A stretch of DNA of 20,443 nt, from positions 1 to 20,443 of IMG/VR virus record IMGVR_UViG_3300025128_000445. The stretch is one strand, 5' to 3'. The notes under the pieces were generated by a model. That model was not told where the DNA came from. It worked only from the letters and a program-made list of their open reading frames with translations, and made no database searches. Positions 3,368-20,443 of this stretch are shown here, piece by piece (positions within the stretch are counted from its first letter, which is position 1; every line of letters begins with the position of its first letter). Source of the DNA: a virus. Both the position numbers and the translations under genes were made by a program.

Positions 3368-3657
3368 TGGCACCTAGAAAGAAGGCAAAGATGCCTGCTA
3401 AAAATAAGAAGAATTTTAGAGCCACTAAAAAGGGGGCTGGTATGACTAAGGCTGGTGTCAAAGCTTATAGAAGACTAAATCCTGGATCTAAGCTCAAGAC
3501 TGCTGTAACTGGTAAAGTAAAGAAAGGAAGCAAAGCAGCTAAGAGAAGAAAATCTTATTGTGCTAGAAGTTTAGGTCAACTAAAACGAAGCAGTGCCAAG
3601 ACTAGAAACAATCCTAATTCAAGAATCAGACAAGCAAGAAGACGTTGGAAATGTTAA
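3367..3657 (+). CDS. Small basic phage protein with GMTKAGVKAYRR / PGSKLKTAVTGKVK signature
   Basis: A 96-residue, extremely Lys/Arg-rich protein. After a basic tail of about 24 residues it contains GAGMTKAGVKAYRRLNPGSK, then LKTAVTGKVKKGSKAAKRRK and YCARSLGQLKR. This pattern recurs in many marine phages as a small protein of unknown function (I recall it as a DUF6321-type domain; the number is from memory). It is coupled to the preceding gene by a TAATG overlap. One Cys sits in the conserved YCARS segment and a second is the last residue. A virion-associated DNA-binding role is plausible from charge and location; function is not established. Confidence 0.75.
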   Translation: MAPRKKAKMPAKNKKNFRATKKGAGMTKAGVKAYRRLNPGSKLKTAVTGKVKKGSKAAKRRKSYCARSLGQLKRSSAKTRNNPNSRIRQARRRWKC

Positions 3658-4028
3658 ACGATAGATTACTCATATTTGAAAAGGATACTATTGACGCTGA
3701 CAGTGTGGTTGAACACAGTGATGGTACCAACTTAGACTTTTTTGCTACACGTTTTTCTAGCTTCTCTAGTTTTTCAGCTACAGAAAGACAAGTATATATG
3801 TACTTTAAAGATAATAATTCTATAGACTTGGCTAGAACAGGTCGTAGCAAGACGGTAGTTATACTTGATGTAGAACCTTTTTCTGAGACTAGAGTAATTA
3901 GAGCATTATATAGAAAGCTAGCAGGTTCAAATAAGAAAGATACTTTGTTTGAGTTTGATGCTCTTGGAAATCGATTCCCAGTTGAAGAGATTGTAGGTAT
4001 TAACAGTATTAAAAGATTTACATCATAA
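3651..4028 (+). CDS. Unknown 125-aa protein between the basic cluster and the envelope genes
   Basis: I place the start at the ATG at 3651, which overlaps the previous gene by 7 bases; an in-frame TTG at 3645 is a weaker option. The protein is soluble, with alternating acidic and aromatic stretches (TNLDFFATRFSSFSSFSATE), a beta-alpha segment (KTVVILDVEPFSETRVIRALYRKL) and a C-terminus ending GINSIKRFTS. The segment KTVVILDVEPFSETRV looks like a short strand plus helix, but no nucleotide-binding motif is present. No family was recognised. It could be a neck or head-completion protein by position. Confidence 0.62.
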   Translation: MLNDRLLIFEKDTIDADSVVEHSDGTNLDFFATRFSSFSSFSATERQVYMYFKDNNSIDLARTGRSKTVVILDVEPFSETRVIRALYRKLAGSNKKDTLFEFDALGNRFPVEEIVGINSIKRFTS

Positions 4029-4029
4029 C

Positions 4030-6390
4030 ATGAAAAATATATTATTTATCATATTAGTTTTTTGCTCAACTTACAGCTATGCTCAAGGTAGTTGGCTAGA
4101 TGTACAAGTTCAGACAGATAATTATGCTGGGGAAACTTCTTGGCAAATCCTTAGTGACTCAAATGTAGTAGCAGTTAGCCCTCCACTACAAAACAGTACC
4201 TTACAAAATCACATGGTATTTTTACCAGCCGGCGATTATGAGTTCGTTATGATGGATTCTTTTGGAGATGGTATATGTTGTTCGTTTGGAGAAGGTTGGT
4301 ATAGAATAAGTAATACATGTGGGTTGGATACAGCAGTGTATGACTTTGATACAGCGTTAGACACTATACCTTTTACTTTAAATCCATGTATACCTCCTAT
4401 TCCTGGATGTACTAATCCTGTGGCAAACAACTACAATCCATGGGCGAACATAGATAATGGTAGCTGTAATGTATTTGAATGTGATTCTACCGAGACTCTT
4501 GTTTCTATGGATCTTACATTAGACACATGGCCTGGAGAGACTGGCTTTACTTTAGTTAACATAGCTAATGGTCAGCCATATGAGCAGGTTATACCTGGAG
4601 AGTTTGACTTTGGGGATCAACTTGCTACATACACTTACGATTTTTGCGTATCACTAGGCTTTGAGTTAATATTAGTAGACGAGTTTGGAGATGGGCTAAA
4701 TGGCTATGCTTCAGGAGGACAAGATGGAGCATGTGTTATTACAGCCTGCGATAGTATTATATGGGAATTAGAAGATCTAGCATTTACAGAGTTTGAGGGA
4801 AACACAATGTACTCTGGGCCTATATTTCCCGATCCTTGTCCACCAGCGCCTGATGTAGTTGGCTGTATGGATGATGATTATGTAGATTATAATCCGGATG
4901 CTGAGCTGCCAGACACATGTGAAACATTACACACTTGGGGTTGTACAGATCCTGAAGCCTTAAATTATGACAGTACAGCAACAATATCAGACCTTGTAGG
5001 TCCTTGCACAATACAAATTATACTAGAAGATGACGCAGCTGATGGATGGGGTAACTCTAAGATAGGTATGGTTCAAGGGGAACAACAATGGCTGTTTACT
5101 GTAGGTCCTGGTGAGTTTAATCAGTCTTGGGATATTGTACTAGATTCTGATGAGGAGGTTGATATATATTACTTCCAAGCTGGTAATCAACAGCAATCTT
5201 CTCAAGAGCTAGCCTTTCAAACATTACACAACTCTGTGTATGTTCTTAACGAGGCAGGTGATACTTTACTGTCTGAGGGTAGTAATCCTTTTATAAATAA
5301 TGGACAGGGGGCTCTTCAACCGTTCACAGGACCTAACTGGACGGTATATCATTTCACTCCTTTTTGTGGAGATGGATGTATACCTTATATATATGGGTGC
5401 ACTGATGAGACTGCTTGTAACTACAACTCTGAAGCTAACACAAACTCTGACTGTAACTATCCTGTTCAGTACTATGATTGTGCAAACAGCTGCATAAATG
5501 ATACAGACGAAGATGGAATCTGCGATGAATTAGAAATTGAAGGATGCCAAGATCCTACAGCATTTAACTATAATTCTTCAGCAACTGATGCTGGCGATTG
5601 TGTGCCGGTAATTTTTGGCTGCACAGATCCTACAATGTTCAACTATAATCCAGAGGCAAATACTTCTTTAGAAAACTGCGTACCATTTGTTTATGGGTGT
5701 ATGGATGATACCATGTATAATTTTAACCCTCTAGCAAATACTGAATATGACCCTTCTACTTGTGAGCCTATTGTTTATGGGTGTACTGACCCTTCTATGC
5801 TCAACTATAACTCATCCGCTAACACAGAAGATTTTAGCTGTATTCCTTACATTTATGGCTGTACTGATAGTAGCGCCTTTAATTATGATCCAACTGCTAA
5901 TACTGACAATGGCTCGTGTATCGAAACAGTTGAAGACTGTATGGACCAAGATGCGTACAATTATAATTCCTTGGCAAATGTTAATGATGCCGATGCTTGT
6001 CTTTACGATGCCGGCTGTATTACAGGTCCTGGAGAACCCTACTGGTTAAATGATGAATGCTATGCTTGGACTATTGATGTAGATCCTTACTGCTGTAGCA
6101 CAGCTTGGGATGAAACTTGTATAACGTTATATCAATACTGTGACGATAACTTTGTAGGTATAGATGATATACATGATGTATATGGTGTATATCCAAATCC
6201 AACAAATGGTATTGTGATTATAAACTCTATTGTTCCTGTATCAGTAGATGTGTATGACTCAAACGGACGTAAAATTATTACAGCACAAACAGATAACAGA
6301 TTAGACTTATCTAGTTTTGCTAATGGAACCTATATAGCAGTAATTTATGCTAACAATAGAATATATAAACAAACAATTATCAAATCATGA
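4030..6390 (+). CDS. Secreted Cys-repeat protein with T9SS type A sorting domain
   Basis: A 786-residue protein with four visible parts. Residues 1-19 form a classic signal peptide (MKNILFIILVFCSTYSYAQ). Beta-sandwich-like segments follow, including DSFGDGICCSFGEGWY near residue 76 and DEFGDGLNGYASGG. From residue 126 to about 656 there are ten Cys-bounded repeats of the GCTDPxxxNYNxxANTxxxSC type, six in a near-continuous run from residue 456, interrupted by a thrombospondin-3-like Ca-binding stretch (NDTDEDGICDELE, about 490). Residues 715-786 are a type A sorting domain: YPNPTNG, VDVYDSNGRKI, LDLSSFANGTYIAVIY, then a basic end. In Bacteroidota such proteins cross the inner membrane by Sec, are exported by the type IX secretion system and are attached to the surface or released. 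In a phage virion operon this implies use of the host T9SS. Target is unknown; adhesion, receptor masking or polymer binding are inferences. Confidence 0.9.
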   Translation: MKNILFIILVFCSTYSYAQGSWLDVQVQTDNYAGETSWQILSDSNVVAVSPPLQNSTLQNHMVFLPAGDYEFVMMDSFGDGICCSFGEGWYRISNTCGLDTAVYDFDTALDTIPFTLNPCIPPIPGCTNPVANNYNPWANIDNGSCNVFECDSTETLVSMDLTLDTWPGETGFTLVNIANGQPYEQVIPGEFDFGDQLATYTYDFCVSLGFELILVDEFGDGLNGYASGGQDGACVITACDSIIWELEDLAFTEFEGNTMYSGPIFPDPCPPAPDVVGCMDDDYVDYNPDAELPDTCETLHTWGCTDPEALNYDSTATISDLVGPCTIQIILEDDAADGWGNSKIGMVQGEQQWLFTVGPGEFNQSWDIVLDSDEEVDIYYFQAGNQQQSSQELAFQTLHNSVYVLNEAGDTLLSEGSNPFINNGQGALQPFTGPNWTVYHFTPFCGDGCIPYIYGCTDETACNYNSEANTNSDCNYPVQYYDCANSCINDTDEDGICDELEIEGCQDPTAFNYNSSATDAGDCVPVIFGCTDPTMFNYNPEANTSLENCVPFVYGCMDDTMYNFNPLANTEYDPSTCEPIVYGCTDPSMLNYNSSANTEDFSCIPYIYGCTDSSAFNYDPTANTDNGSCIETVEDCMDQDAYNYNSLANVNDADACLYDAGCITGPGEPYWLNDECYAWTIDVDPYCCSTAWDETCITLYQYCDDNFVGIDDIHDVYGVYPNPTNGIVIINSIVPVSVDVYDSNGRKIITAQTDNRLDLSSFANGTYIAVIYANNRIYKQTIIKS
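4405..6000 (+). repeat. Ten Cys-bounded protein repeats (GCTDP...NYN..AN...C)
   Basis: Copies of about 20-23 codons begin at residues 126 (GCTNPVANNYNPWAN) through 636 (DCMDQDAYNYNSLAN). Six near-consecutive copies occupy roughly 5395-6000. Each starts with Gly/Asp-Cys, has an Asn/Asp-rich centre with Tyr or Phe, and closes with Cys, a pattern consistent with one disulphide and a Ca-binding loop per unit. The linker between dense copies is mostly V/I-P-F/Y-I/V-Y-G. DNA identity between copies is low, so these are old protein-level repeats, not recent tandem duplications. Confidence 0.85.
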
Positions 6391-6539
6391 AAAAGGTAAA
6401 TTGGATTAATAGCTGGAAGGCTAACAACAAAAAAGAGAAGTATGAACTTCAGTTTAGAATTGGAACAGTAACAATACTTCATGTTAGCTGGGCTAAGAAA
6501 TTTAGATTTATGGTCCTTAATGTAGGCTTTGAACTGTGA
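6387..6539 (+). CDS. Small unknown protein (50 aa)
   Basis: A 50-residue protein starting MKKVNWINSWKANNKKEKYE and ending KFRFMVLNVGFEL. Its ATG overlaps the T9SS cargo stop (ATGA) and its stop overlaps the next start (TGATG), so it is tied by coupling to both envelope genes. It is basic, with alternating strand-like residues (LQFRIGTVTILHVSWAKKF) and no clear membrane helix. No family was recognised. Confidence 0.6.
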   Translation: MKKVNWINSWKANNKKEKYELQFRIGTVTILHVSWAKKFRFMVLNVGFEL

Positions 6540-7636
6540 TGTCACTAGAGAGTAAAAATATTGAAAAAAAAATGAAGCAATTTGAATTTATTCTGTATTG
6601 CTTTATAATGCTTGTAGTATTTATACTTGGCTCAACTTTAGACGCAAGAGGACAAACACTAAAGAAAGCTTTTAAGTTTTCTACGTTTTATGTTGCTGCA
6701 AGTGGTAGTAACTCTCTTGCTGATAATAATATTTATTCTGTAACCAATGGTTTAAATACTTCTATAGAAACGACTCCTTATGATTATGCTTTTACATTAG
6801 GCATTCGTAAGATAGCTAGGTTCGGATATGAGAATCGTGCCAATACATTCTATAATGGTACAGAAAGATCTTATAGTGATGCTGCAACAATTGGTAAAGT
6901 AAAAGGCTTTGAGTATCTACTTGAAGCAGACTGGATCAGGCAACAGGGGCGTACGTTCTTTAATCAAGATTATTTTGTACGTTACGTGTCAAAGAATTGG
7001 ATAGCTAAAGTTGAATACTTAGAAGACAATATTGCAGACATATCATACTTTGAGGGATCTCAAAGAGGAAGAATAAACGTTACAAATAAGTTTAGCATTA
7101 ATGCAGGACTTATACAACGTGTAGCAGAACCTTATGGTTACGATCCTTTAGAAGAGTGGGTGTTATCAAATAATAGCATACACTATACAAGTCTTGCTTT
7201 ACAAGAGGGATATACTATGGATGTAAACACAGGACAGTTTTTTGCTCCTGACGGAACACTAGTAGCGGAGAATACAGAAGTCTGGGAAGCTGTTGTTATA
7301 CCAGAAGTATTATCTGACTATGTAGATCGTAAAAGAAGTGAACTGCCTGATCAATGGCAGCACTCACTAGTAGTAGGCTATGACTACTATCATTTTACAG
7401 ATGATTTCTGGCTACACTCTTGGGGTAATCTACTTCCTTATCACCTTGATCAGGGAGGAGAGTTCTCCTACCATCGCTTTAATAATAATGACCAGTGGTT
7501 AGACTACTCAGGAGGGCTTATATTTGGATATAGGTTTAATAAAAGCTTAGGCGTTTTTCTAGAGGGTAAATACCACAAGTACTGGAGTAAGACCTGGTAC
7601 GACTTTTTAGTAGGAATGAACTATGTAATATTTTAA
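6539..7636 (+). CDS. Putative outer-membrane beta-barrel protein
   Basis: A 365-residue protein from the ATG at 6539, which shares one base with the previous stop. An in-frame ATG at 6572, after an A-rich stretch, gives a cleaner signal peptide (MKQFEFILYCFIMLVVFILG...ARGQ) and may be the true start. After the hydrophobic segment the chain is rich in Tyr, Phe, Trp and short alternating strands (FEYLLEADWIRQ, YFVRYVSKNWIAKVEYL, LVVGYDYYHF, YSGGLIFGYRF, LGVFLEGKYHKY). It ends in YDFLVGMNYVIF; a last strand with terminal Phe is the usual outer-membrane barrel assembly signal. It lies directly after the T9SS cargo gene and before the lysis genes. Surface exclusion, anchoring the T9SS protein or outer-membrane disruption at lysis are possible roles; none is proven. 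Confidence 0.75.
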   Translation: MSLESKNIEKKMKQFEFILYCFIMLVVFILGSTLDARGQTLKKAFKFSTFYVAASGSNSLADNNIYSVTNGLNTSIETTPYDYAFTLGIRKIARFGYENRANTFYNGTERSYSDAATIGKVKGFEYLLEADWIRQQGRTFFNQDYFVRYVSKNWIAKVEYLEDNIADISYFEGSQRGRINVTNKFSINAGLIQRVAEPYGYDPLEEWVLSNNSIHYTSLALQEGYTMDVNTGQFFAPDGTLVAENTEVWEAVVIPEVLSDYVDRKRSELPDQWQHSLVVGYDYYHFTDDFWLHSWGNLLPYHLDQGGEFSYHRFNNNDQWLDYSGGLIFGYRFNKSLGVFLEGKYHKYWSKTWYDFLVGMNYVIF

Positions 7637-7639
7637 GAA

Positions 7640-7924
7640 ATGGCAAAACAAATAGGTGAGGATACTAAAGTAACATTAGACCTCAAAACAATTGGAATGG
7701 GTGCGGCTGGTTTAGCTGCTTTAATAGGAATGTACTTTGCGTTACAAGCTGATATAGCTTTAGCTAAAGAACTACCTGAACCACTACCTCCAGAAATTAC
7801 ACGTATGGAGTTTGACATGAAAGACCAATTAGTTCGTCAAACTATCATGACTACGCAAGAAGATGTGAAAGAAGTTAAAGAAGACCTTGACCGCATCGAA
7901 GCAAAAATTGATAAACTAAAATAA
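7640..7924 (+). CDS. Single-helix membrane protein with coiled coil (holin-like candidate)
   Basis: A 94-residue protein with one hydrophobic helix at about 17-36 (TIGMGAAGLAALIGMYFALQ), a Pro-rich linker (KELPEPLPPEITR) and an acidic/basic heptad-like coiled coil from about 58 to 94 (ending DRIEAKIDKLK). The N-terminus is short and polar, and no cleavable signal is evident. Similar proteins occur beside M15 endolysin genes in marine phages (from memory), where they are sometimes called holins. With only one helix it would be a class III-type holin, or an inner-membrane spanin/chaperone-like subunit. Position in the probable lysis cassette is the main support. Confidence 0.65.
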   Translation: MAKQIGEDTKVTLDLKTIGMGAAGLAALIGMYFALQADIALAKELPEPLPPEITRMEFDMKDQLVRQTIMTTQEDVKEVKEDLDRIEAKIDKLK

Positions 7925-7932
7925 CATGAAAG

Positions 7933-8298
7933 ATGAAAACTGCTCTACTAGCTGTATTATCCTTGCTCTCTTACTCGGTAATACATGTTTCTCTACTGGA
8001 AACTGTCCCAAAAATTAGTACCGACGGTATATGTGTTGCTGAGTTTAACGCTTCGTTTAATTCTCAAAACAGTGTACCTTGGATAGAAAAACTAAATGAC
8101 TGTACAACAACTCGTGTAGATATTGCTGCTTCCCCAAATTTACAGACAGAGCATAAGATTGTTGTAGTTCCTACAATTGTAGTATTTAATGATGGAAAGG
8201 AGGTAGAAAGATTTCAAGCTAATATTATGATGAGTATGGAGGCTAGCAAATCGGATGTTCAAGGAGCTATTGATGATATCATCATGAGTGATTTTTAA
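7933..8298 (+). CDS. Secreted or membrane-anchored thioredoxin-fold protein lacking CxxC
   Basis: A 121-residue protein with a hydrophobic N-terminal signal or anchor (MKTALLAVLSLLSYSVIHVS). A thioredoxin-like order follows: strand VAEFNASF (35-42), helix, strand TRVDIAA, then VVVPTIVVFNDGKEVERFQ (77-95) with the hallmark cis-proline at Pro80 and the following beta hairpin, and a C-terminal helix. Aligning VAEFNASFNSQN with the thioredoxin VDFWAEWCGPC motif places Asn43-Ser44-Gln45-Asn46 where Cys-Gly-Pro-Cys should be. Redox activity is therefore unlikely. A periplasmic binding or scaffolding role between holin and endolysin genes is inferred. From memory, similar CxxC-less proteins exist in other marine phages. 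Confidence 0.75.
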   Translation: MKTALLAVLSLLSYSVIHVSLLETVPKISTDGICVAEFNASFNSQNSVPWIEKLNDCTTTRVDIAASPNLQTEHKIVVVPTIVVFNDGKEVERFQANIMMSMEASKSDVQGAIDDIIMSDF

Positions 8299-8308
8299 AT
8301 AGAATATA

Positions 8309-8773
8309 ATGGCTGATAAAATAAGCAAACATATAAGTTATAAAGAAGCTACTCGTAGTAACACAGCTTTACGTAGAGGTATAGATAATATACCAGACGT
8401 AGAAGAGCTCGAAAACATGAAGCTTATTGCTGAAAAAGTATTTGAGCCTTTACGTAAGTTTGTTAAAGGTCCGATTAAGATAAACAGCTTTTATAGATCA
8501 CCTGAGCTAAATATAGCTATAGGTGGCAGTAAAAAATCACAGCATTGTCATGGCCAAGCTATGGATCTCGATGATACATATGGTCATAGAACAAACGCAT
8601 CTATGTTTACATATATTAAGAATCACTTAGACTTTGATCAGTTGATCTGGGAGTTTGGTGATGATAAAAACCCAGCATGGATACATGTCAGTTATGTCTC
8701 AGAAGACAAGAACCGACGCAGATGTTTAAAAGCCGTAAAGAAAAGCGGTAAAACTACTTACGAATTAATTTAA
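8309..8773 (+). CDS. Endolysin, M15-family zinc peptidase
   Basis: A 154-residue protein with the M15 (VanY/D-Ala-D-Ala carboxypeptidase-like) zinc site. The motif SQHCHGQAMD at 77-86 supplies His79 and Asp86, and WIHVSY at 124-129 supplies His126. The conserved INSFYRSPELN motif (58-68) precedes it. It hydrolyses a peptide bond in peptidoglycan stem peptides at the end of infection. It has no signal peptide, so it needs a holin-type route, consistent with the membrane protein two genes upstream. Length is typical for a compact phage M15 endolysin. A virion-associated wall-degrading role is less likely but not excluded, since the gene sits among structural genes. Confidence 0.92.
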   Translation: MADKISKHISYKEATRSNTALRRGIDNIPDVEELENMKLIAEKVFEPLRKFVKGPIKINSFYRSPELNIAIGGSKKSQHCHGQAMDLDDTYGHRTNASMFTYIKNHLDFDQLIWEFGDDKNPAWIHVSYVSEDKNRRRCLKAVKKSGKTTYELI

Positions 8774-12330: not shown

Positions 12331-13482
12331 ATGGCAGAACTCAAAAAGGAAAAAGAACTAGCTACTAAGGTTAAACGAGCTCCTACTAAATCTTCTAAGA
12401 AGGTTGTAAAAGTAGGTTCAAAGTTTAAGAGCAAGAGTAAGGACGTTACTAATGGAGATGGACGTGACCCTATAGACAAGGAGGATGCTAAAGTGCCTAC
12501 TAAAGGGCCTGATAAATTTGTTAAACCTGAACAGGATACAGTTTCTCAAGTAATAATAAGACCTACAAAAGATCCTGTAGAGCCCATAGATCCTGACGAT
12601 CCTGATAATCTAGATTACCAGCCAGACCCAAAGGAGGAGCCTATTAAGGTTCCTAGTAATCTAACATTTACAGACAGTACACCTGTACCAACTATTGCAG
12701 AAGAGGAAGAGATTTTAGCTAATCTAGCAGTTAATACTAGAAAGAATCAAAACTCGGTAGGACTTCCTGCAGTCTCAGCCGCTGCGGCTAGATCTGCTAC
12801 TACAGGGTTTATAGCTAATCAAGAAGGACTACTAGGGTATGCTAGTCCTGCTATATACAACAATATTGTAGATGGCGCAATCTCCGAGTCTGAACTTACT
12901 CAGAAAGTATTTGATCTACAGTGCCAGTATAAAGATTTAGTTTATGCTATAACAAACAAATGGCGTTATGGTATCTTCTGCTCAGATGATAAAGACTTAA
13001 TTATTGAGATTAGAGCTTTACTTAAGTTACTAGTATGCTACGGTGTTGAAGGCACGGCAATACAAGCAGGTACAGATATTAGTGAGTTCTCACAGAACTA
13101 TGCTGACTATATTACGTTTGGAGGAGTTGATCTAAATGACTTTGAGAAATTCCCTGCCGGTATAACTGAAGGAGACTATCTGTTTATAACTAGTCCCTTT
13201 ACAAATCAGTACTATATATTACTAGTAACTGGAGGAACATTATTAGATGGAGATCTTGTACCAACTGCTAATATACTTAATTTTTTAGATCAAGGATGGA
13301 CGGATTTCTCTAATAATATTTATGGACTTGAATATGGTTCAATAGAAAGTGGGAGTCAAGCTGATTTAGATGATGCTTTAGATGCAGCACAAGGGGTAGA
13401 AATATTTGCATCAGGATTACCCGATGCTACGTTAATTAAGATTGTAAACAAAATTGAAAAACTCTTACAATGCTCACATTAG
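12331..13482 (+). CDS. Tail-region protein with Lys-rich and Pro/Asp-rich N-terminal linker
   Basis: A 383-residue protein in three parts. Residues 1-45 are Lys/Ser-rich and probably disordered (MAELKKEKELATKVKRAPTK). Residues about 46-125 are Pro/Asp/Glu-rich (DPVEPIDPDDPDNLDYQPDP). A folded part follows with a Cys-bearing helical segment (Cys198, Cys217, Cys236) and an alpha/beta C-terminus (YLFITSPFTNQYYILLVTGG) ending in a helix. The last 13 bases overlap the next gene. It could be a tether in the tail or collar. No family was recognised; the Cys-helix segment resembles part of the product of 9653-10351. Confidence 0.62.
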   Translation: MAELKKEKELATKVKRAPTKSSKKVVKVGSKFKSKSKDVTNGDGRDPIDKEDAKVPTKGPDKFVKPEQDTVSQVIIRPTKDPVEPIDPDDPDNLDYQPDPKEEPIKVPSNLTFTDSTPVPTIAEEEEILANLAVNTRKNQNSVGLPAVSAAAARSATTGFIANQEGLLGYASPAIYNNIVDGAISESELTQKVFDLQCQYKDLVYAITNKWRYGIFCSDDKDLIIEIRALLKLLVCYGVEGTAIQAGTDISEFSQNYADYITFGGVDLNDFEKFPAGITEGDYLFITSPFTNQYYILLVTGGTLLDGDLVPTANILNFLDQGWTDFSNNIYGLEYGSIESGSQADLDDALDAAQGVEIFASGLPDATLIKIVNKIEKLLQCSH

Positions 13483-14243
13483 AGAAAATGATAGGACAGC
13501 TAGAGGAGGCTATTAATATAGACTCAGATGATTCTGTGTTCAGTGAAAGACTTTTTACAGATCTTATTAACCAAGCAAGAGCTGTCTTTATTAGACAAGA
13601 CTTAAATAAGAATAGGACTGCAGATCCTACAATCATACAAGAACTACCTTGTGTAGAAATGGAGATCACTACTGCCGCTTTGTGTGGATGTTTAGATATA
13701 CCTGGAAACTGTAAACTTCTAAGGTCAAAGAAGAAAATTCCAGATACTATCGAACTCCATCACAATGACGGTATCTTATCTGTAAGACCTGTACAGATTA
13801 TACAGGCACCCTTTAGTTATGTAGACTATAAAAGAATACCGCATATCCATTATTCTAGATTTGCAAAGAATGCTATATATGCATTTTTACTAGATGACTA
13901 TATGTACTTGTACTCACCTGGTCAGGAGCACTATGCTTTGATAGAGCAGATACACATTAGAGGTATCTTTGAAGATCCTACTGAGGCAGGTAACTTTGTT
14001 AATACTTGTGGAGACCCTTGCTTTACTAAAGAAAGTAATTATCCTGTAGCTACATGGATGTTTGAGGCAGCTATGAAGCCTCATATTATGGGACAGATGA
14101 ACATGAAGCTTGTATCTGTAGACGATAAGAATAACAACTCAGACGATGATACAGTTCCTAGAAACGTACCAAGACAACGTGCTCCAGTAGCAGCAGCTAC
14201 AGGTCAACCTGCTCCTAGAAGACAACAACCAGCTAGACGATGA
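13470..14243 (+). CDS. Neck/ring structural protein of crAss-like type
   Basis: A 257-residue protein. It starts MLTLEKMIGQLEEAINIDSD, then has a helix with FSERLFTDLINQARAVFIRQ, and a signature CVEMEITTAALCGCLDIPGN followed by CKLLRSKKKIP. This Cys-containing ME...C.C...C..L.S...IP arrangement is what I recall for a conserved crAss-like structural protein encoded just before the IHF-like gene. The middle (FAKNAIYAFLLDDYMYLYSP) is beta-rich and the last 40 residues are a basic, Pro/Arg/Gln-rich tail (PRQRAPVAAATGQPAPRRQQ), probably disordered. It likely contributes a ring of the connector between portal and tail. It overlaps the genes on both sides (13 bases upstream, 4 bases downstream). Confidence 0.75.
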   Translation: MLTLEKMIGQLEEAINIDSDDSVFSERLFTDLINQARAVFIRQDLNKNRTADPTIIQELPCVEMEITTAALCGCLDIPGNCKLLRSKKKIPDTIELHHNDGILSVRPVQIIQAPFSYVDYKRIPHIHYSRFAKNAIYAFLLDDYMYLYSPGQEHYALIEQIHIRGIFEDPTEAGNFVNTCGDPCFTKESNYPVATWMFEAAMKPHIMGQMNMKLVSVDDKNNNSDDDTVPRNVPRQRAPVAAATGQPAPRRQQPARR

Positions 14244-14767
14244 ACAGAAAGAAAGGGGCACAGGGAAAGAATAATGCTAATGTAAGGTCTCAAGACTTTT
14301 ACAGGTTCTACTATGATCACGAGCGAAAGCCGATTCCTTACAGTAAGCTAAAGAATTTGTATAAGGATTTGATGTCAGGAGTTATGCAAATTATGCTAGA
14401 TGGAGATGAAGCGGTCATCCCTAACCTAGGCTCTTTCTCTATTCGTTCTTACAAGCCAAAGAAGTTTGATAAGAACGGCAACTTTCTTAAACCAGCTATT
14501 GACTTTGGGAGATCTTGGGAGTACTGGAGGAAACTTTATCCAGATAAAACAGACCAAGAGATTACTAAAGTAAAGAGTAAACCACTTCTTAGATATGAGA
14601 ACAGGCACTCTAAAGGCTTAAAGTACATGTTCTACTGGGATCATAGTACTTTAGCTATACGCGGAAAACAGGTCTACAATTTTAAACCTGCAACTCAATA
14701 CAACAGAAAACTTAGTAAGATTGTTAAAAGCGATACTGAGGTTTCATTTGAATCTATAACCCTATGA
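14240..14767 (+). CDS. IHF/HU-like structural protein of crAss-like phages
   Basis: A 175-residue basic protein. Residues 31-73 follow the HU/IHF layout: helices (YSKLKNLYKDLMSGVMQIML), then DGDEAVIPNLGSFSIRSYKP, equivalent to the G-x-G-x-F beta turn of HU. The later segment with KYMFYWDHSTLAIRGKQVYN and then FKPATQYNRKL is the pattern I recall from proteins annotated as 'IHF subunit' in crAss-like genomes. These sit in the tail/neck region of the operon and are virion components with the IHF fold, so nucleoid function is not implied. The start overlaps the previous gene by ATGA, as does its stop with the next. Confidence 0.85.
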   Translation: MNRKKGAQGKNNANVRSQDFYRFYYDHERKPIPYSKLKNLYKDLMSGVMQIMLDGDEAVIPNLGSFSIRSYKPKKFDKNGNFLKPAIDFGRSWEYWRKLYPDKTDQEITKVKSKPLLRYENRHSKGLKYMFYWDHSTLAIRGKQVYNFKPATQYNRKLSKIVKSDTEVSFESITL

Positions 14768-15519
14768 GAAACGGAAGACTAGTATCATACAGAACTATAG
14801 CATCTAGCTTACAGAGAGACTTTCCATTTGTTACTGAGACTATCAGTGATGAAGAGGTTATAGAATGGCTAGGATCATTCATGGGACTAACTAATGCTCC
14901 TGTAATGCTATCAGATCAAACAGCTTTCCTTGAACTGTGTGACGGTAAAGCTCCACTACCTTGTGATCTACATTTAATTATGCAGGTTGCTAGAACAGAT
15001 GCAGATAAATTAGCTGACGGTCCTTGTTCTACACTTAGTCCTATGAGATGGACTACAGATAAATTTCATAGAAGATACCATGACAGTGATGGAGATTTCC
15101 AAGTAAACTCTCCTTATACATATACTGTTAATGACAATTATATTTTTCCTAACTTTAATGATGGTATAGTTGCTATAGCATATAAAGCTATACCTACAGA
15201 TGATGAAGGATTCCCAATGATTCCTGCCGATGAGCAGTGGGTACAAGCTGCAATACATGATATTGCATGGAAGTCAGCTCGTAAGCTTTGGTACTCTAAT
15301 AAAATCTCTACAGATAAGTTTCAGAAGCTGGAACAGGATAGAGATTGGTACTTTTCACAAGCAGTTACTTTCTCTAGAATCCCTAGTATAGATCAACGAG
15401 AGGGCCAAAAAAATCATAGACTACGCTCATTTACGGATATAAATTATCACAATGATTTCTTCCGTAACTATCAATTACCCGAACAGAGATACTTTAAAGG
15501 TCAGTACTTTAACTCATGA
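14764..15519 (+). CDS. Ring/tail-tubular structural protein of crAss-like type
   Basis: A 251-residue protein. Helical N-terminus (SLQRDFPFVTETISDEEVIEWL), then DLHLIMQVARTD, a beta strand series around NDNYIFPNFNDGIVAIAYKA, the characteristic IPTDDEGFPMIPADEQW, a long helix region (IHDIAWKSARKLWYSNKIST) and a polar, aromatic tail. The 'IAYKAIPTDDEGFPMIP' pattern is what I recall for the conserved crAss-like structural protein lying between the IHF-like and muzzle genes. It is probably one ring of the tail barrel, in the area where other podophages have a P22 gp4-like protein; that equivalence is inferred. It is translationally coupled on both sides. Confidence 0.8.
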   Translation: MRNGRLVSYRTIASSLQRDFPFVTETISDEEVIEWLGSFMGLTNAPVMLSDQTAFLELCDGKAPLPCDLHLIMQVARTDADKLADGPCSTLSPMRWTTDKFHRRYHDSDGDFQVNSPYTYTVNDNYIFPNFNDGIVAIAYKAIPTDDEGFPMIPADEQWVQAAIHDIAWKSARKLWYSNKISTDKFQKLEQDRDWYFSQAVTFSRIPSIDQREGQKNHRLRSFTDINYHNDFFRNYQLPEQRYFKGQYFNS

Positions 15520-18500
15520 CGAATCAAGACCCTCATGTTAATGATTATAAGGACGGCTTAAATAAGGATTTTAATCCTGAATCTTTTCCAAAGACCGCCT
15601 ATGAAGATGCAAACAATCTGCGTCTTTTTACCTCTGAAGATGGACAATCTTTAGGGGCTATTCAGAATGTTACTGGTACTAGGGTAGCAGCTAGTATTCC
15701 TCAGTCTATCGTAGGCATGTGTCAACTTAGGGATAAGGTTGTAGTATTTGCTACTGATGACTCATCTGAAGAAGGAGGAGAAGGATTTATTTATGAAGTA
15801 GAATTTAATTTCCAAGATTTTGGAAACGACGCTGATGTAAATTTAATCTACAGTAATCCAGATTTAAGATTTTCAAGACTACGTCCTATTGAAGCAATAG
15901 GTATTTTTGAGAACGCAAACTTTCAAAGAGTTTACTTTTCAGACTTTGAGAATCCTACTAGATCAATAAATATTGCTGATCCTCTTGTAAGTACTTTTGC
16001 AGTTTCAGCTCTAAACTTTTTCCCTAACCCAGGAGTAGTTAGACCTGTAGTAGATAATGTTAGCGGAGGAGGAAGCCTTCGAGCAGGTATATATTCATAC
16101 TGTTATTTCTTTACATCTGAAGGAGGTAATACAACAGTTATATCTCCTATGTCTCAACAGGTTCATATTGTTCAAGCTGATGATAATAATGCTAGTACTA
16201 CTAATAATTATTTTGGTATTACAGAAATTATTGATGATGATTTTGCAACTACAAAACAGGTAACACTAACAGTAGATCTAAGTGAGTTACCTCCTGATAC
16301 TTATCAGACAATTAGTTTAGTTAGTGTTTTTCTTGCCGACTTTGGAGAGCTGCCTCAAATAGCAGTAGTAGAATCAGAAGATATTTCTGGTAACACTGAC
16401 AGTGTAATTTTAGTACACTCTGGAAATGAGGGAGAAGAAATTGTCTCTAGCTTTGAAGAGTTTGCTACAGGTAACGTACCTTTTAAAACCAACAAGACAT
16501 TTGGTATAAAAGATAATATTCTATTTTGTGCTAACATTAAAGGGTATGAAATTGATGTACCTGATGTTATTCGAGAGGGATTAGAAACATTTAGATTTAG
16601 ACAGAATAGTAGTAATACTTATGACAATTACGGGGTTTATCAGAATCCATTTAATGATGAATCAGGAACAGTCTTTGGAGAAGAGGCTGGAGGCACTTAT
16701 GAGACTTGGTTAGATGACTATCAATATAAGTTTCAGCAAAATAGTGGAGTTTTAGGAGGGTCAGCTGAGTTTATAAGTTATGAATTTTGTCTACACAGAA
16801 TGGAGGGAGATAGCTCTCCTAATATAGGACTAGGATTTCTAACAAATTTTTTTAATGATAACCAAGCTATTGATGATATAGATATAGATGATGGAGTTGA
16901 TTATCTTAATAGATCATTTAGAGATTTTGCTAGTCCTTATAATAGAGTTGTAAGAGGCTATAAAAGAGGAGAGGTTTATAGATTTGGCATTGTATTCTTT
17001 AATTCTGCAGGAGGATCTTCTAGTGTACAGTTTATAGGGGATATTAAGTTTCCAGAAATTTCAGATACCTCTTCAAGTCCAGTAGGTACTACATACGGCG
17101 GACAGCCAATATTTCATTTTCCAATATCATTATCAAGAGGTTATGATGGAGATAATGCGGGATACACTGATCTTTTCTCGTTAGGCATAAACTTTACTGT
17201 TAGTTTAGATCAAGATTTTCTTGCTGCTAATGAAATTACACACTATCAAATTGTAAGGTGTAAAAGAAAAGATAGTGATAAAAGCCGTTTAGCACAAGGA
17301 GTAGTTAATAAGTGGTACTTACCTGCTACAGCTTTTGCTGATGCCGATGTTCAGGATAACCCGCAGGTATTCTATCCTGTAGCAGAGATGTTAGATATCC
17401 CAGGGCATCTTAATAGGTATCATAAAAACAGCGGCCGCTTCGAGCATGAAGGTGAAGGCATTGGAGGCAATGAAGCTCCAACTGCATTTGGAGAAAATGC
17501 TGAACAGTTTATCTATCCTTTGGGGGGCATAAATTCAGCTGCATTTGGTGATGGTATACATGGAGATGATGGCGTAAAACAACCACACGTTCATGATGTC
17601 CAAGATGGCACAGGATATGATTTTCATAATAGTGTATTTAATACTCTGCTCCCCTCTAATGATCGTAGAACTGGTGTAGGTTACATAGGCGGATCTGTAT
17701 TAGGGGAAGACCCAGATTCTTCTCCAACTCAGTCCGATAGAAGGAATATTATTGAAACATCTGTTCCTTATCAATCAGCAGCTTCTGTAGAATGTCTCAT
17801 GTCTTTTCACTGCCCTGAGATAACCTTTAACCATTTTGTTCCTAGCTTATCATCAGGCGTAGACTTTTTACGTACAGTAGGAGTATTAACTTACACTACT
17901 AAACATAATACAGAAAGAAAGCACCATCCTTTTGGAATAGGACCAGAGGGTTCAGAACTAGAATACCAATATCCACCTAGTCTAACTCGAGGAGGTAAAT
18001 TAGATAATTTTACTCAATGGGGTCACACTTTATATAGTATTCAAAATAGTCCTGGTAATACTCAAAATTCTATATCCAATAGTCCAGGTAGTATGGAACG
18101 TGGTACTGATGGAGGATCTGAAACATCTATTACAGAAAAGCGTAAAGAGTTCAGACCTTTATTAGGATGTGATAATATGTTAGGCGCTGACAGTGATCAT
18201 GAAAAAACATTTTTCTACAGAAAGAAGGATCCTGCACGTAGCGATCGTAAGTTAATTACTAAAGCTAGACAAACATCTCCTTTAGATGTTTTAGGCAATG
18301 CCCCAGCGGATTTTCACCTTCAGCCTGAGAACTTTGAAAAGATTGAAGACATGCAGTCTATTGTACCAAGTACATATGTATTTGACCCTACCATTACAGT
18401 TGGAGACTTTACTTGTAAAAATTTAGCCTTTGAAATGGGTAACGTTTTTGTAGACGGTATGGAACATACTAGAATGGCTAGACATGGTACTAATTTATTA

Positions 18501-20443
18501 ATCAGTACAGGAACAATTGCAGGAGCAAAATTCCATAGTACTAATTCTGCTACTCACGATAATGCTGGTAGATTTATTGCTAATCATCCTGGGTTTGCAG
18601 CCACTGCAGGAACCCGTGGAGAAAACTTTGCAGGATCTGCTTTCTTAGTAGAGTATGTCCGTAGAAATACAAATCAATATGGAGGGCAGTCGCAAACAGC
18701 AGTAGCTGCTAATACTTTCTTTACCACATCGGCTCCTATTAAAGTAACAGAAATAAATGCTACTACAGGCCAAGAAACAATAACAGCATCACAAAACTTT
18801 AAAGTTTTTGAGGGAGATACTTTTGTACAGTACTATGAGTTCATGAAGAACTTCTGGAATAATCAGTATAGTAAAAATGATGAGACTTCACAAAATGCTA
18901 GTGCTTTTAACTATAATGACTCTAGTACTTTTGAAACAGTTGTAATTCCTGTAGAGTCTGTTATTAATACACAGCTAAACGCAGGGGCAAGTAGGTTTGC
19001 GCCTAATGAAGGACTGTTCGATCCTGGAGAAGATGTTCCTGAGAACTATAGAATGCAGGAGCAATTTGATGTTAATGGAGTATCGAATGTTTTATTCAAC
19101 GGCACAACTAAAGCATTTGAATATAACCCTGTATTCTCAGAAGATCAGATTACTAAAATATTCTTTGCTGATCCTCCTGACTTTAATCCAGTATCCGAGT
19201 TTGATGTTAGAACATATTACTCTAATACAAAAATTTTAGGAGAGAGTGTAGACGCATTCACACAGTTTGGTATACTTAACTATAAAGATATTGATCCAGC
19301 ATATGGGGCTATTAATAGACTACTCAATCTACAAGATGAAATTGTAACTATTCAAGATGACGCTATCGGAGTCTTCTTAGTTAATACTAGAGAACTTGCA
19401 GGAGCTGAATCAGGTACTCTTATAACATTAGGCACAGGAGATGGAGTTCAAGACTTCTCATATGTCACTACTCAGAATGGGAGCATACATCAATATGCTG
19501 CTGTAGTAGCAGATGGAGTTGCCTATATTCTTGATGCTAAACGTAAGGCCTTAGTTATACTAAAAGGGACTACAGCGCAAGATGTATCAAAAGCATTGGG
19601 AATGAATAGCTACTTCAATGATAACATTGGAGGAATGATGCTCTTGACCAAGAAGCAGGGGGGCGATAACCCACTAATAGGTATTGGAGCTACATTAGGA
19701 TATGATACTAGAAACAGAGAAGTTCTTATTTCTTTATTTGGTAATCAGTATGGATACAACTTAAATAATAATTATTCTTATGGACCTAACAAAGCATTTA
19801 ACTCAGGCTTTGGCACAGGTTTAGGATTAGATGGAAACATTGAGTTACTGTATATGAATGGTGTTCCATTTGATGTTACTAACCTACCAGTGCAGGCAGG
19901 AGGTAATCCAGGAATTATAAATGTTGATGGAGATGCTATAAATACTCCAGGAGATGAACTCAGTGCTTACGGAGAGATTTTAGAATCAGATATAACTCCT
20001 CTATTACCATTACCTGATTTTAATAGTAATCTATTTGATGTTCTACAAAGTATTGATGGAAACTTTGAAAGCATCTTACCTTCTTCTAGGATAGAAGGAA
20101 GTACTCTAGTATACTCAGAGCCAATGGCTAAGTTTACAAGTTTCTATTCATGTTTACCTTCTCAGTATCTAAATGGTTTTAGAGAGTTAATGTCAGTACC
20201 TACCATATTAGGAGAAGGCAGCGTTGTTAATACTACTAATAGATTATTTGTACATAATGAAGGAGATTATGGACGGTTCTATGGAGAAGTATCAGATACA
20301 TCTTTAACTTTCATTGTAAACACAGGAGCACTATTAAATAAGATCTTAAGATTTATAGAATACAACTGTACTGTAAAAGATGAGAACGGCAACGTTATTC
20401 AGTCTGCGGGTTTAAATAGAATTAGAGTAGAGAATGATTATCA
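15516..20443 (+). CDS. Muzzle/'stabilization' protein of crAss-like phage (partial, 3' end beyond window)
   Basis: The frame opens at the ATG at 15516, overlapping the previous stop (ATGA), and stays open for at least 1,642 codons to the window edge. I read the whole frame and saw no stop. Signatures of the family are present: N-terminal DYKDGLNKDFNPESF and YEDANNLRLFTSEDG; VYFSDFENPTRSINI (about 139); KTFGIKDNILFCAN (about 328); GYKRGEVYRFGIVFF (about 480); HYQIVRCKRKDS (about 575); FHCPEITFN; YVRRNTNQYGGQ (about 1045); LQDEIVTIQDDAIGVFLVN; and AKFTSFYSCLPSQYL near the end. In crAss-like virions this protein forms the large distal tail muzzle. The signature spacing is stretched by loops (for example Gly/Asp/His-rich 17450-17640). 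An internal GCGGCCGC at 17432-17439 is just a codon run. Confidence 0.9.
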   Translation, partial: MTNQDPHVNDYKDGLNKDFNPESFPKTAYEDANNLRLFTSEDGQSLGAIQNVTGTRVAASIPQSIVGMCQLRDKVVVFATDDSSEEGGEGFIYEVEFNFQDFGNDADVNLIYSNPDLRFSRLRPIEAIGIFENANFQRVYFSDFENPTRSINIADPLVSTFAVSALNFFPNPGVVRPVVDNVSGGGSLRAGIYSYCYFFTSEGGNTTVISPMSQQVHIVQADDNNASTTNNYFGITEIIDDDFATTKQVTLTVDLSELPPDTYQTISLVSVFLADFGELPQIAVVESEDISGNTDSVILVHSGNEGEEIVSSFEEFATGNVPFKTNKTFGIKDNILFCANIKGYEIDVPDVIREGLETFRFRQNSSNTYDNYGVYQNPFNDESGTVFGEEAGGTYETWLDDYQYKFQQNSGVLGGSAEFISYEFCLHRMEGDSSPNIGLGFLTNFFNDNQAIDDIDIDDGVDYLNRSFRDFASPYNRVVRGYKRGEVYRFGIVFFNSAGGSSSVQFIGDIKFPEISDTSSSPVGTTYGGQPIFHFPISLSRGYDGDNAGYTDLFSLGINFTVSLDQDFLAANEITHYQIVRCKRKDSDKSRLAQGVVNKWYLPATAFADADVQDNPQVFYPVAEMLDIPGHLNRYHKNSGRFEHEGEGIGGNEAPTAFGENAEQFIYPLGGINSAAFGDGIHGDDGVKQPHVHDVQDGTGYDFHNSVFNTLLPSNDRRTGVGYIGGSVLGEDPDSSPTQSDRRNIIETSVPYQSAASVECLMSFHCPEITFNHFVPSLSSGVDFLRTVGVLTYTTKHNTERKHHPFGIGPEGSELEYQYPPSLTRGGKLDNFTQWGHTLYSIQNSPGNTQNSISNSPGSMERGTDGGSETSITEKRKEFRPLLGCDNMLGADSDHEKTFFYRKKDPARSDRKLITKARQTSPLDVLGNAPADFHLQPENFEKIEDMQSIVPSTYVFDPTITVGDFTCKNLAFEMGNVFVDGMEHTRMARHGTNLLISTGTIAGAKFHSTNSATHDNAGRFIANHPGFAATAGTRGENFAGSAFLVEYVRRNTNQYGGQSQTAVAANTFFTTSAPIKVTEINATTGQETITASQNFKVFEGDTFVQYYEFMKNFWNNQYSKNDETSQNASAFNYNDSSTFETVVIPVESVINTQLNAGASRFAPNEGLFDPGEDVPENYRMQEQFDVNGVSNVLFNGTTKAFEYNPVFSEDQITKIFFADPPDFNPVSEFDVRTYYSNTKILGESVDAFTQFGILNYKDIDPAYGAINRLLNLQDEIVTIQDDAIGVFLVNTRELAGAESGTLITLGTGDGVQDFSYVTTQNGSIHQYAAVVADGVAYILDAKRKALVILKGTTAQDVSKALGMNSYFNDNIGGMMLLTKKQGGDNPLIGIGATLGYDTRNREVLISLFGNQYGYNLNNNYSYGPNKAFNSGFGTGLGLDGNIELLYMNGVPFDVTNLPVQAGGNPGIINVDGDAINTPGDELSAYGEILESDITPLLPLPDFNSNLFDVLQSIDGNFESILPSSRIEGSTLVYSEPMAKFTSFYSCLPSQYLNGFRELMSVPTILGEGSVVNTTNRLFVHNEGDYGRFYGEVSDTSLTFIVNTGALLNKILRFIEYNCTVKDENGNVIQSAGLNRIRVENDY

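Follow-up and report, generated by a model that had tools for sequence, protein, structure and literature searches.

Can a phage use the type IX secretion system (T9SS) of its host to place a protein of its own on the surface of the infected cell, and would such a protein act alone or with partners? The question is raised by a gene for a 786-residue protein in a 20,443-nucleotide viral contig (IMG/VR record IMGVR_UViG_3300025128_000445; the whole of this stretch is referred to as the window). The original prediction, made from the letters alone, held that this gene lies in a phage virion operon and encodes a cargo protein for the host T9SS. We find that the cargo belongs to a five-gene envelope cassette, made up of the cargo, a 50-residue ORF, an outer-membrane β-barrel, a 94-residue protein and a thioredoxin-fold protein (Table 1).

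Table 1. Positions of the cassette genes, their domains and the flanking genes in the window.
Feature	Position	Strand	Details and basis
Upstream ORF	3645..4028	+	Ends 1 base before the cargo ATG (coupling)
T9SS type A cargo protein	4030..6390	+	786 aa; profile matches, fold, conservation
Sec signal peptide MKNILFIILVFCSTYSYAQ	4030..4086	+	Cargo residues 1-19; inspection, pattern kept in relatives
T9SS type A C-terminal sorting domain	6187..6384	+	Cargo residues 720-785; TIGR04183, PF18962, fold match
50-aa ORF, previously unlisted	6387..6539	+	Overlaps cargo stop and barrel start
Outer-membrane β-barrel with signal peptide, virus-only	6536..7636	+	366 aa from GTG; ATG at 6539
94-aa one-span membrane protein	7640..7924	+	Coiled-coil-like tail; holin-like at most
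Thioredoxin-fold protein with signal peptide, without CxxC	7933..8298	+
M15 peptidase endolysin	8309..8773	+	Directly 3′ of the cassette; PF08291 53 bits, phrog_894 endolysin
crAss-like tail block (ring, IHF-like, tail tubular, muzzle)	13470..20441	+	Similarity and gene order

The Cargo Protein and Its Sorting Domain

The cargo runs from a signal peptide through β domains and cysteine-rich GCTDPxxxNYN repeats to a C-terminal sorting domain, and all of the parts that the original prediction had read from the letters (signal peptide, Cys-repeat body and type A sorting domain) are indeed present. The profile search that it had proposed placed both profiles over their curated cut-offs, with TIGR04183 matching at 40.8 bits (cut-off 23; E 1.7e-10) over a region that reaches the C-terminus and PF18962 at 36.5 bits (cut-off 27), and a direct DNA search found the same domain at 6187-6384 (1.3e-13). 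The signal peptide was assigned by eye, from its typical Bacteroidota Sec pattern, and by conservation, as the pattern is also seen in those cargo relatives that have an intact 5′ end. The AlphaFold2 model of the whole cargo was weak (pLDDT 63, pTM 0.27), and fold matches of the cargo body were disregarded for this reason. The modelled sorting domain superposes on two substrates of the T9SS translocon determined by cryo-EM, 8glk_D (NucA) and 8glj_D (FspA-CTD), with TM scores by target of 0.75-0.76 and rmsd values of 2.3-2.4 for the predicted fold, which has the β-sandwich of known T9SS substrates. Judged from its sequence and the modelled domain, the cargo is very probably exported to the cell surface.

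At least 87 viral contig stretches contain a relative of the cargo, and 80 of these relatives, with identities of 36-100%, were kept. In a first set of 50 relative records, 43 had a TIGR04183 score over cut-off, as did 49 of 50 further records (92/100 over both sets). Forty records of the second set had been picked solely via the neighboring barrel gene, and every one of the 40 carries the sorting domain. A chance origin of the domain is excluded because 49 of the 50 further records carry it over cut-off. In close pairs the dN/dS was lowest in the cargo body (0.05), higher in the sorting domain (0.16) and highest in the signal peptide (0.23); all three are under purifying selection, which is strongest in the body. 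The faster evolution of the sorting domain relative to the body counts against the explanation that we favor below.

Passenger domains have been exchanged among the relatives while the signal peptide and sorting domain were retained, as is expected of a surface-exposed part. The N-terminal domains that swap include a WLGDGYCDDGSY type and a GITNLQGEISCFPWSPNQGELSV type (L127-L160, L134/L141), which suggests that they are polymorphic binding modules. A second cargo-like gene stands in tandem between the cargo and barrel genes in five loci (L047, L048, L050, L056, and L069), with a sorting domain of its own detected in those that were searched (L047, L048, L050, and L069). No recognizable sorting domain was found in the cargo homologs of four contigs (L074, L075, L076, and L077); their C-termini finish with residues resembling LVAITDMLGRPV..ILIYIYDDGSTEK, which may be a variant tail not described before. 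These four contigs, too, count against the explanation favored below.

Single domains of the cargo resemble domains of bacterial T9SS proteins, as they would if the phage were a passive carrier of a host gene or if the contig were a host-phage chimera. We consider this extremely improbable in view of the recurrence of the same neighbors in the viral stretches noted above, the low dN/dS and a barrel partner that is essentially restricted to viruses. The original prediction had allowed for a chimera at 4030-7640 in particular, and this is refuted because the neighborhood is conserved across independent viral assemblies.

Organization of the Cassette

The cargo gene had been thought to be translationally coupled to the gene that follows. 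Coupling was confirmed, with the correction that the next ORF is the 50-residue ORF, which is itself coupled to the barrel gene: the junctions are ATGA at the cargo stop and TGATG at the barrel start, so that the ORF is coupled on both sides. It is kept at 50-77% in about 45 loci, those of contractile-tailed phages included, where it lies directly upstream of the cargo gene. Among 112 distinct barrel loci, a cargo gene occurred within 6 kb in 111, the gene for the 94-residue protein in 107 and that for the thioredoxin-fold protein in 105. Counted over all loci, near-copies included, the cargo gene precedes the barrel gene in 99 and follows it in 31. Searches for sigma-70-like promoters and for the flavobacterial TANNTTTG motif gave matches at chance level.

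The thioredoxin-fold protein matched the thioredoxin profile weakly. CxxC is absent in 127 of its 129 relatives (C..C in the other two), most of which have FNASFN or a similar sequence in its place, yet the protein is strongly conserved. A BLAST search of 50,697 GenBank phage records found no detectable relatives of the cassette genes, and for the thioredoxin-like gene the only matches in the same records were weak ones to thioredoxins of Streptomyces phages.

The M15 endolysin gene directly after the cassette raises the alternative that the cassette is a lysis module, in which the 94-residue protein would be the holin, the M15 protein the endolysin, and the barrel and exported cargo would open or loosen the outer membrane, taking over the part of spanins. 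Parts are predicted for all envelope layers, and an M15 gene is also nearby in 28 of the 112 barrel loci, a quarter, which suits a lysis role no less than the exclusion role proposed below. Against it, the M15 gene is not nearby in most loci, the PHROG holin/hemolysin matches of the 94-residue protein are weak only, and lysis has no need for a surface-exported, variable, adhesin-like protein, so we regard this alternative as unlikely.

The Outer-Membrane Barrel

An alignment of 26 diverse members of the barrel family had a mean column identity of 63%. The AlphaFold2 model (pLDDT 71) has about 12 strands and an added helical stretch, and in Foldseek and VIA searches it matched generic monomeric outer-membrane barrels (CymA, OmpG, Omp33, and OMPLA), with no T9SS-associated barrel standing out among these matches; a chain of the T9SS complex 8gl6 scored Z 9.4, tied with many unrelated barrels. 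A PDB profile search with the barrel gave no match. By sequence, an assignment to PorP/SprF was rejected, as no such Pfam or NCBIfam profile matched at E 0.1. A viral model in BFVD, A0A516LKJ4 (342 residues), matches the barrel at E 2.5e-25 with 23% identity.

Relatives of the barrel are found in viral contigs, and only five turned up among 84,980 genomes of bacteria and archaea (L161-L165), none of them clearly bacterial: the records of four have titles that name them as MAGs, and the fifth comes from an uncultured MAG assembly. As two of the five contigs carry other cassette genes, the five are probably phage contigs that were placed in bins.

Carrier Phages and Exchange of the Cassette

The original description of a virion operon flanked by structural and lysis genes agrees with the content of the window, in which genes for ring, IHF-like, tail tubular and muzzle proteins lie downstream on the same strand and the M15 gene follows the cassette. 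The ring, tail tubular and muzzle proteins have 25-30% identity to those of Crassvirales, such as Cellulophaga phage phi14:2, and occur in the same order. This set of tail genes, the IHF-like gene included, agrees in order and similarity with an assignment of the window's phage to Crassvirales, and no capsid, portal or terminase was identified on the 20 kb fragment. Phage phi14:2 itself has no match to the cassette.

The terminase family phrog_6681 was strongly matched in 43 of 50 large carrier contigs (weakly only in two more), while the tail sheath (phrog_23) was present in five of the 50, none of which had a strong phrog_6681 match; the tail tubular protein profile matched in five of the 50. 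The nearest isolates of phrog_6681 carriers include Flavobacterium phages elemo and Cellulophaga phages, and those of the tail-sheath carriers include Flavobacterium phage immuto and Microcystis phage Mel-JY01. As the nearest isolates infect Flavobacteriia and Bacteroides, and mostly Flavobacterium and Cellulophaga, we infer from these related isolates that the hosts of the carrier phages are Bacteroidota.

In a tree of 49 barrel sequences, contractile-tailed phages are nested among podoviruses, and for the phages with a crAss-like tail protein four changes or more are needed on branches with good support. The identity to the barrel of the window is about 55-69% across lineages. Because the barrel tree mixes podoviruses and contractile-tailed phages, the cassette seems to be passed from one phage lineage to another. 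Exchange of the gene independently of tail type also speaks against the proposal that the cargo is a component of the virion, a tail or decoration protein that is exported and picked up at lysis. Its position among virion genes would fit such a role, but the Sec signal peptide diverts it from cytoplasmic assembly and it has no similarity to virion proteins, and we consider this very unlikely.

Proposed Role of the Exported Cargo

The explanation that we favor overall, and to which we give an even chance, is the late surface display of an adhesin-like viral cargo that remodels the surface of the infected cell. The cargo would be made late in infection and exported by Sec, and its C-terminal domain would then carry it through the translocon of the host T9SS to the outside, where it would be anchored or shed. 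Its partners would be the virus-specific outer-membrane barrel, the small coupled protein, the one-span protein in the inner membrane and a periplasmic, non-redox thioredoxin-fold protein. Remodeling of the surface before lysis could reduce adsorption by further phages, and by progeny on debris, possibly through masking of receptors together with competition for the T9SS that exports receptor adhesins. In Flavobacterium columnare, mutants affected in the T9SS or in gliding are resistant to phage V156 (PMC9233685), and SprB and RemA, two adhesins exported by the T9SS, may serve as phage receptors (PMC13288928). That the cargo limits competing or repeat adsorption is a plausible suggestion, to which we lean somewhat less than evenly.

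An adhesin could also serve a different end, namely fastening infected cells or debris to neighboring cells, to algae or to particles, which would bring progeny into contact with new hosts, with no block of adsorption. The Cys-rich repeats, β domains and swapped N-terminal modules are all adhesin-like, related domains occur in bacterial T9SS proteins, and a lectin adjoins the T9SS cargo of phage immuto (described below). Late expression, as proposed here, would leave such an adhesin little time to act, and we hold this role to be improbable, slightly more so than the lysis module.

Returning to late display on the infected surface, we tentatively propose, with more reserve than for the exclusion role, an exchangeable, envelope-remodeling cassette common to podoviruses and contractile-tailed phages of marine Bacteroidota, in which a polymorphic viral protein would be exported via the host T9SS and anchored by a dedicated viral outer-membrane barrel, to form a surface structure, built by the phage, through which adsorption or release is controlled. 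This small, swappable gene set, which appears to use the host T9SS to bring a viral protein to the surface of the infected cell, is carried by many uncultured marine viruses of bacteria of the Bacteroidota type. If the proposal is true, it is routine for lytic phages to borrow a secretion machine that is specific to Bacteroidota and to redesign the infected cell surface with a dedicated, horizontally exchanged toolkit; a group of genes seen repeatedly in viral metagenomes from the sea would be given a function; and the T9SS would be linked to phage resistance from the side of the phage. The proposal can be tested in cultured Flavobacterium phages.

Comparison with Known Systems

The original prediction stated that no phage strategy based on T9SS cargo had been described, which is incorrect. 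Three phage-encoded T9SS type A cargo proteins were reported in Cryophage, a phage from glaciers, for which hijacking of the host T9SS and possible superinfection exclusion were proposed (Bellas et al., 2020, PMC7468147), and a study of crAss-like phages noted proteins with T9SS sorting domains near head genes (de Jonge et al., 2019, PMC6949934). The central claim, that the phage supplies cargo for the host T9SS, holds up by profile, fold, conservation and family-wide retention; novelty had to be given up, and the five-gene cassette had been overlooked. The benefits to the phage that the prediction suggested, from masking of receptors and blocking of competitors to matrix binding and spread of progeny, are conjectural. 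Cryophage resembles the carriers studied here in having phage proteins with type A sorting domains that are thought to use the host T9SS. It differs in that its cargo comprises three variable genes (endoglucanase, GH39, and PA14 domain) in one phage type, whereas here a single protein family is found with fixed envelope partners across different tail types. The crAss-like phages likewise have such ORFs near head genes, but are gut phages in which, in the available text (PMC6949934), the ORFs are mentioned in passing with BACON domains and no cassette or outer-membrane barrel is reported. In the papers searched, which were mostly open-access ones, we found no description of a conserved cassette, of its exchange between lineages or of a virus-only barrel.

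Of ten other named phage records, only that of Flavobacterium phage immuto had a TIGR04183 match. Its gp015 (YP_010114427; NC_055915.1 12691-13422, L211:4192-4923) scored 44.8 bits, is annotated only as a cohesin domain-containing protein and shares a gene run with a C-type lectin that bears a signal peptide. Like the cargo of the window, gp015 has a signal peptide and a T9SS type A domain and is followed by a one-span protein and proteins with signal peptides; unlike it, gp015 has a cohesin-domain body and neighbors that are unrelated in sequence. The immuto gene is independent of the cargo of the window, and, being in a cultured phage, makes the reading testable. An assignment of immuto gp017 as CsgG-like was not supported. 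Two uncultured huge phages of 634-642 kb (LR745206 and LR756502) encode small signal-peptide proteins that end in a T9SS sorting domain (L180:3590-4201 and L181:3599-4204).

In Bacteroidota, the SprB/SprF and PorP/SprF pairs have a T9SS cargo gene beside a gene for an outer-membrane barrel. The window has the same adjacency of cargo and barrel genes, with the differences that its sorting domain is of type A, not type B, and that no PorP/SprF profile of Pfam or NCBIfam matches its barrel. The surface exclusion lipoprotein Llp of phage T5 blocks FhuA. Like Llp, the cargo is a phage protein that is predicted to be placed at the host surface during infection; unlike that lipoprotein, it would be exported by the T9SS. 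Set beside these systems, phage-encoded T9SS cargo is an earlier idea, and the widespread, conserved and exchangeable cassette is the new part.
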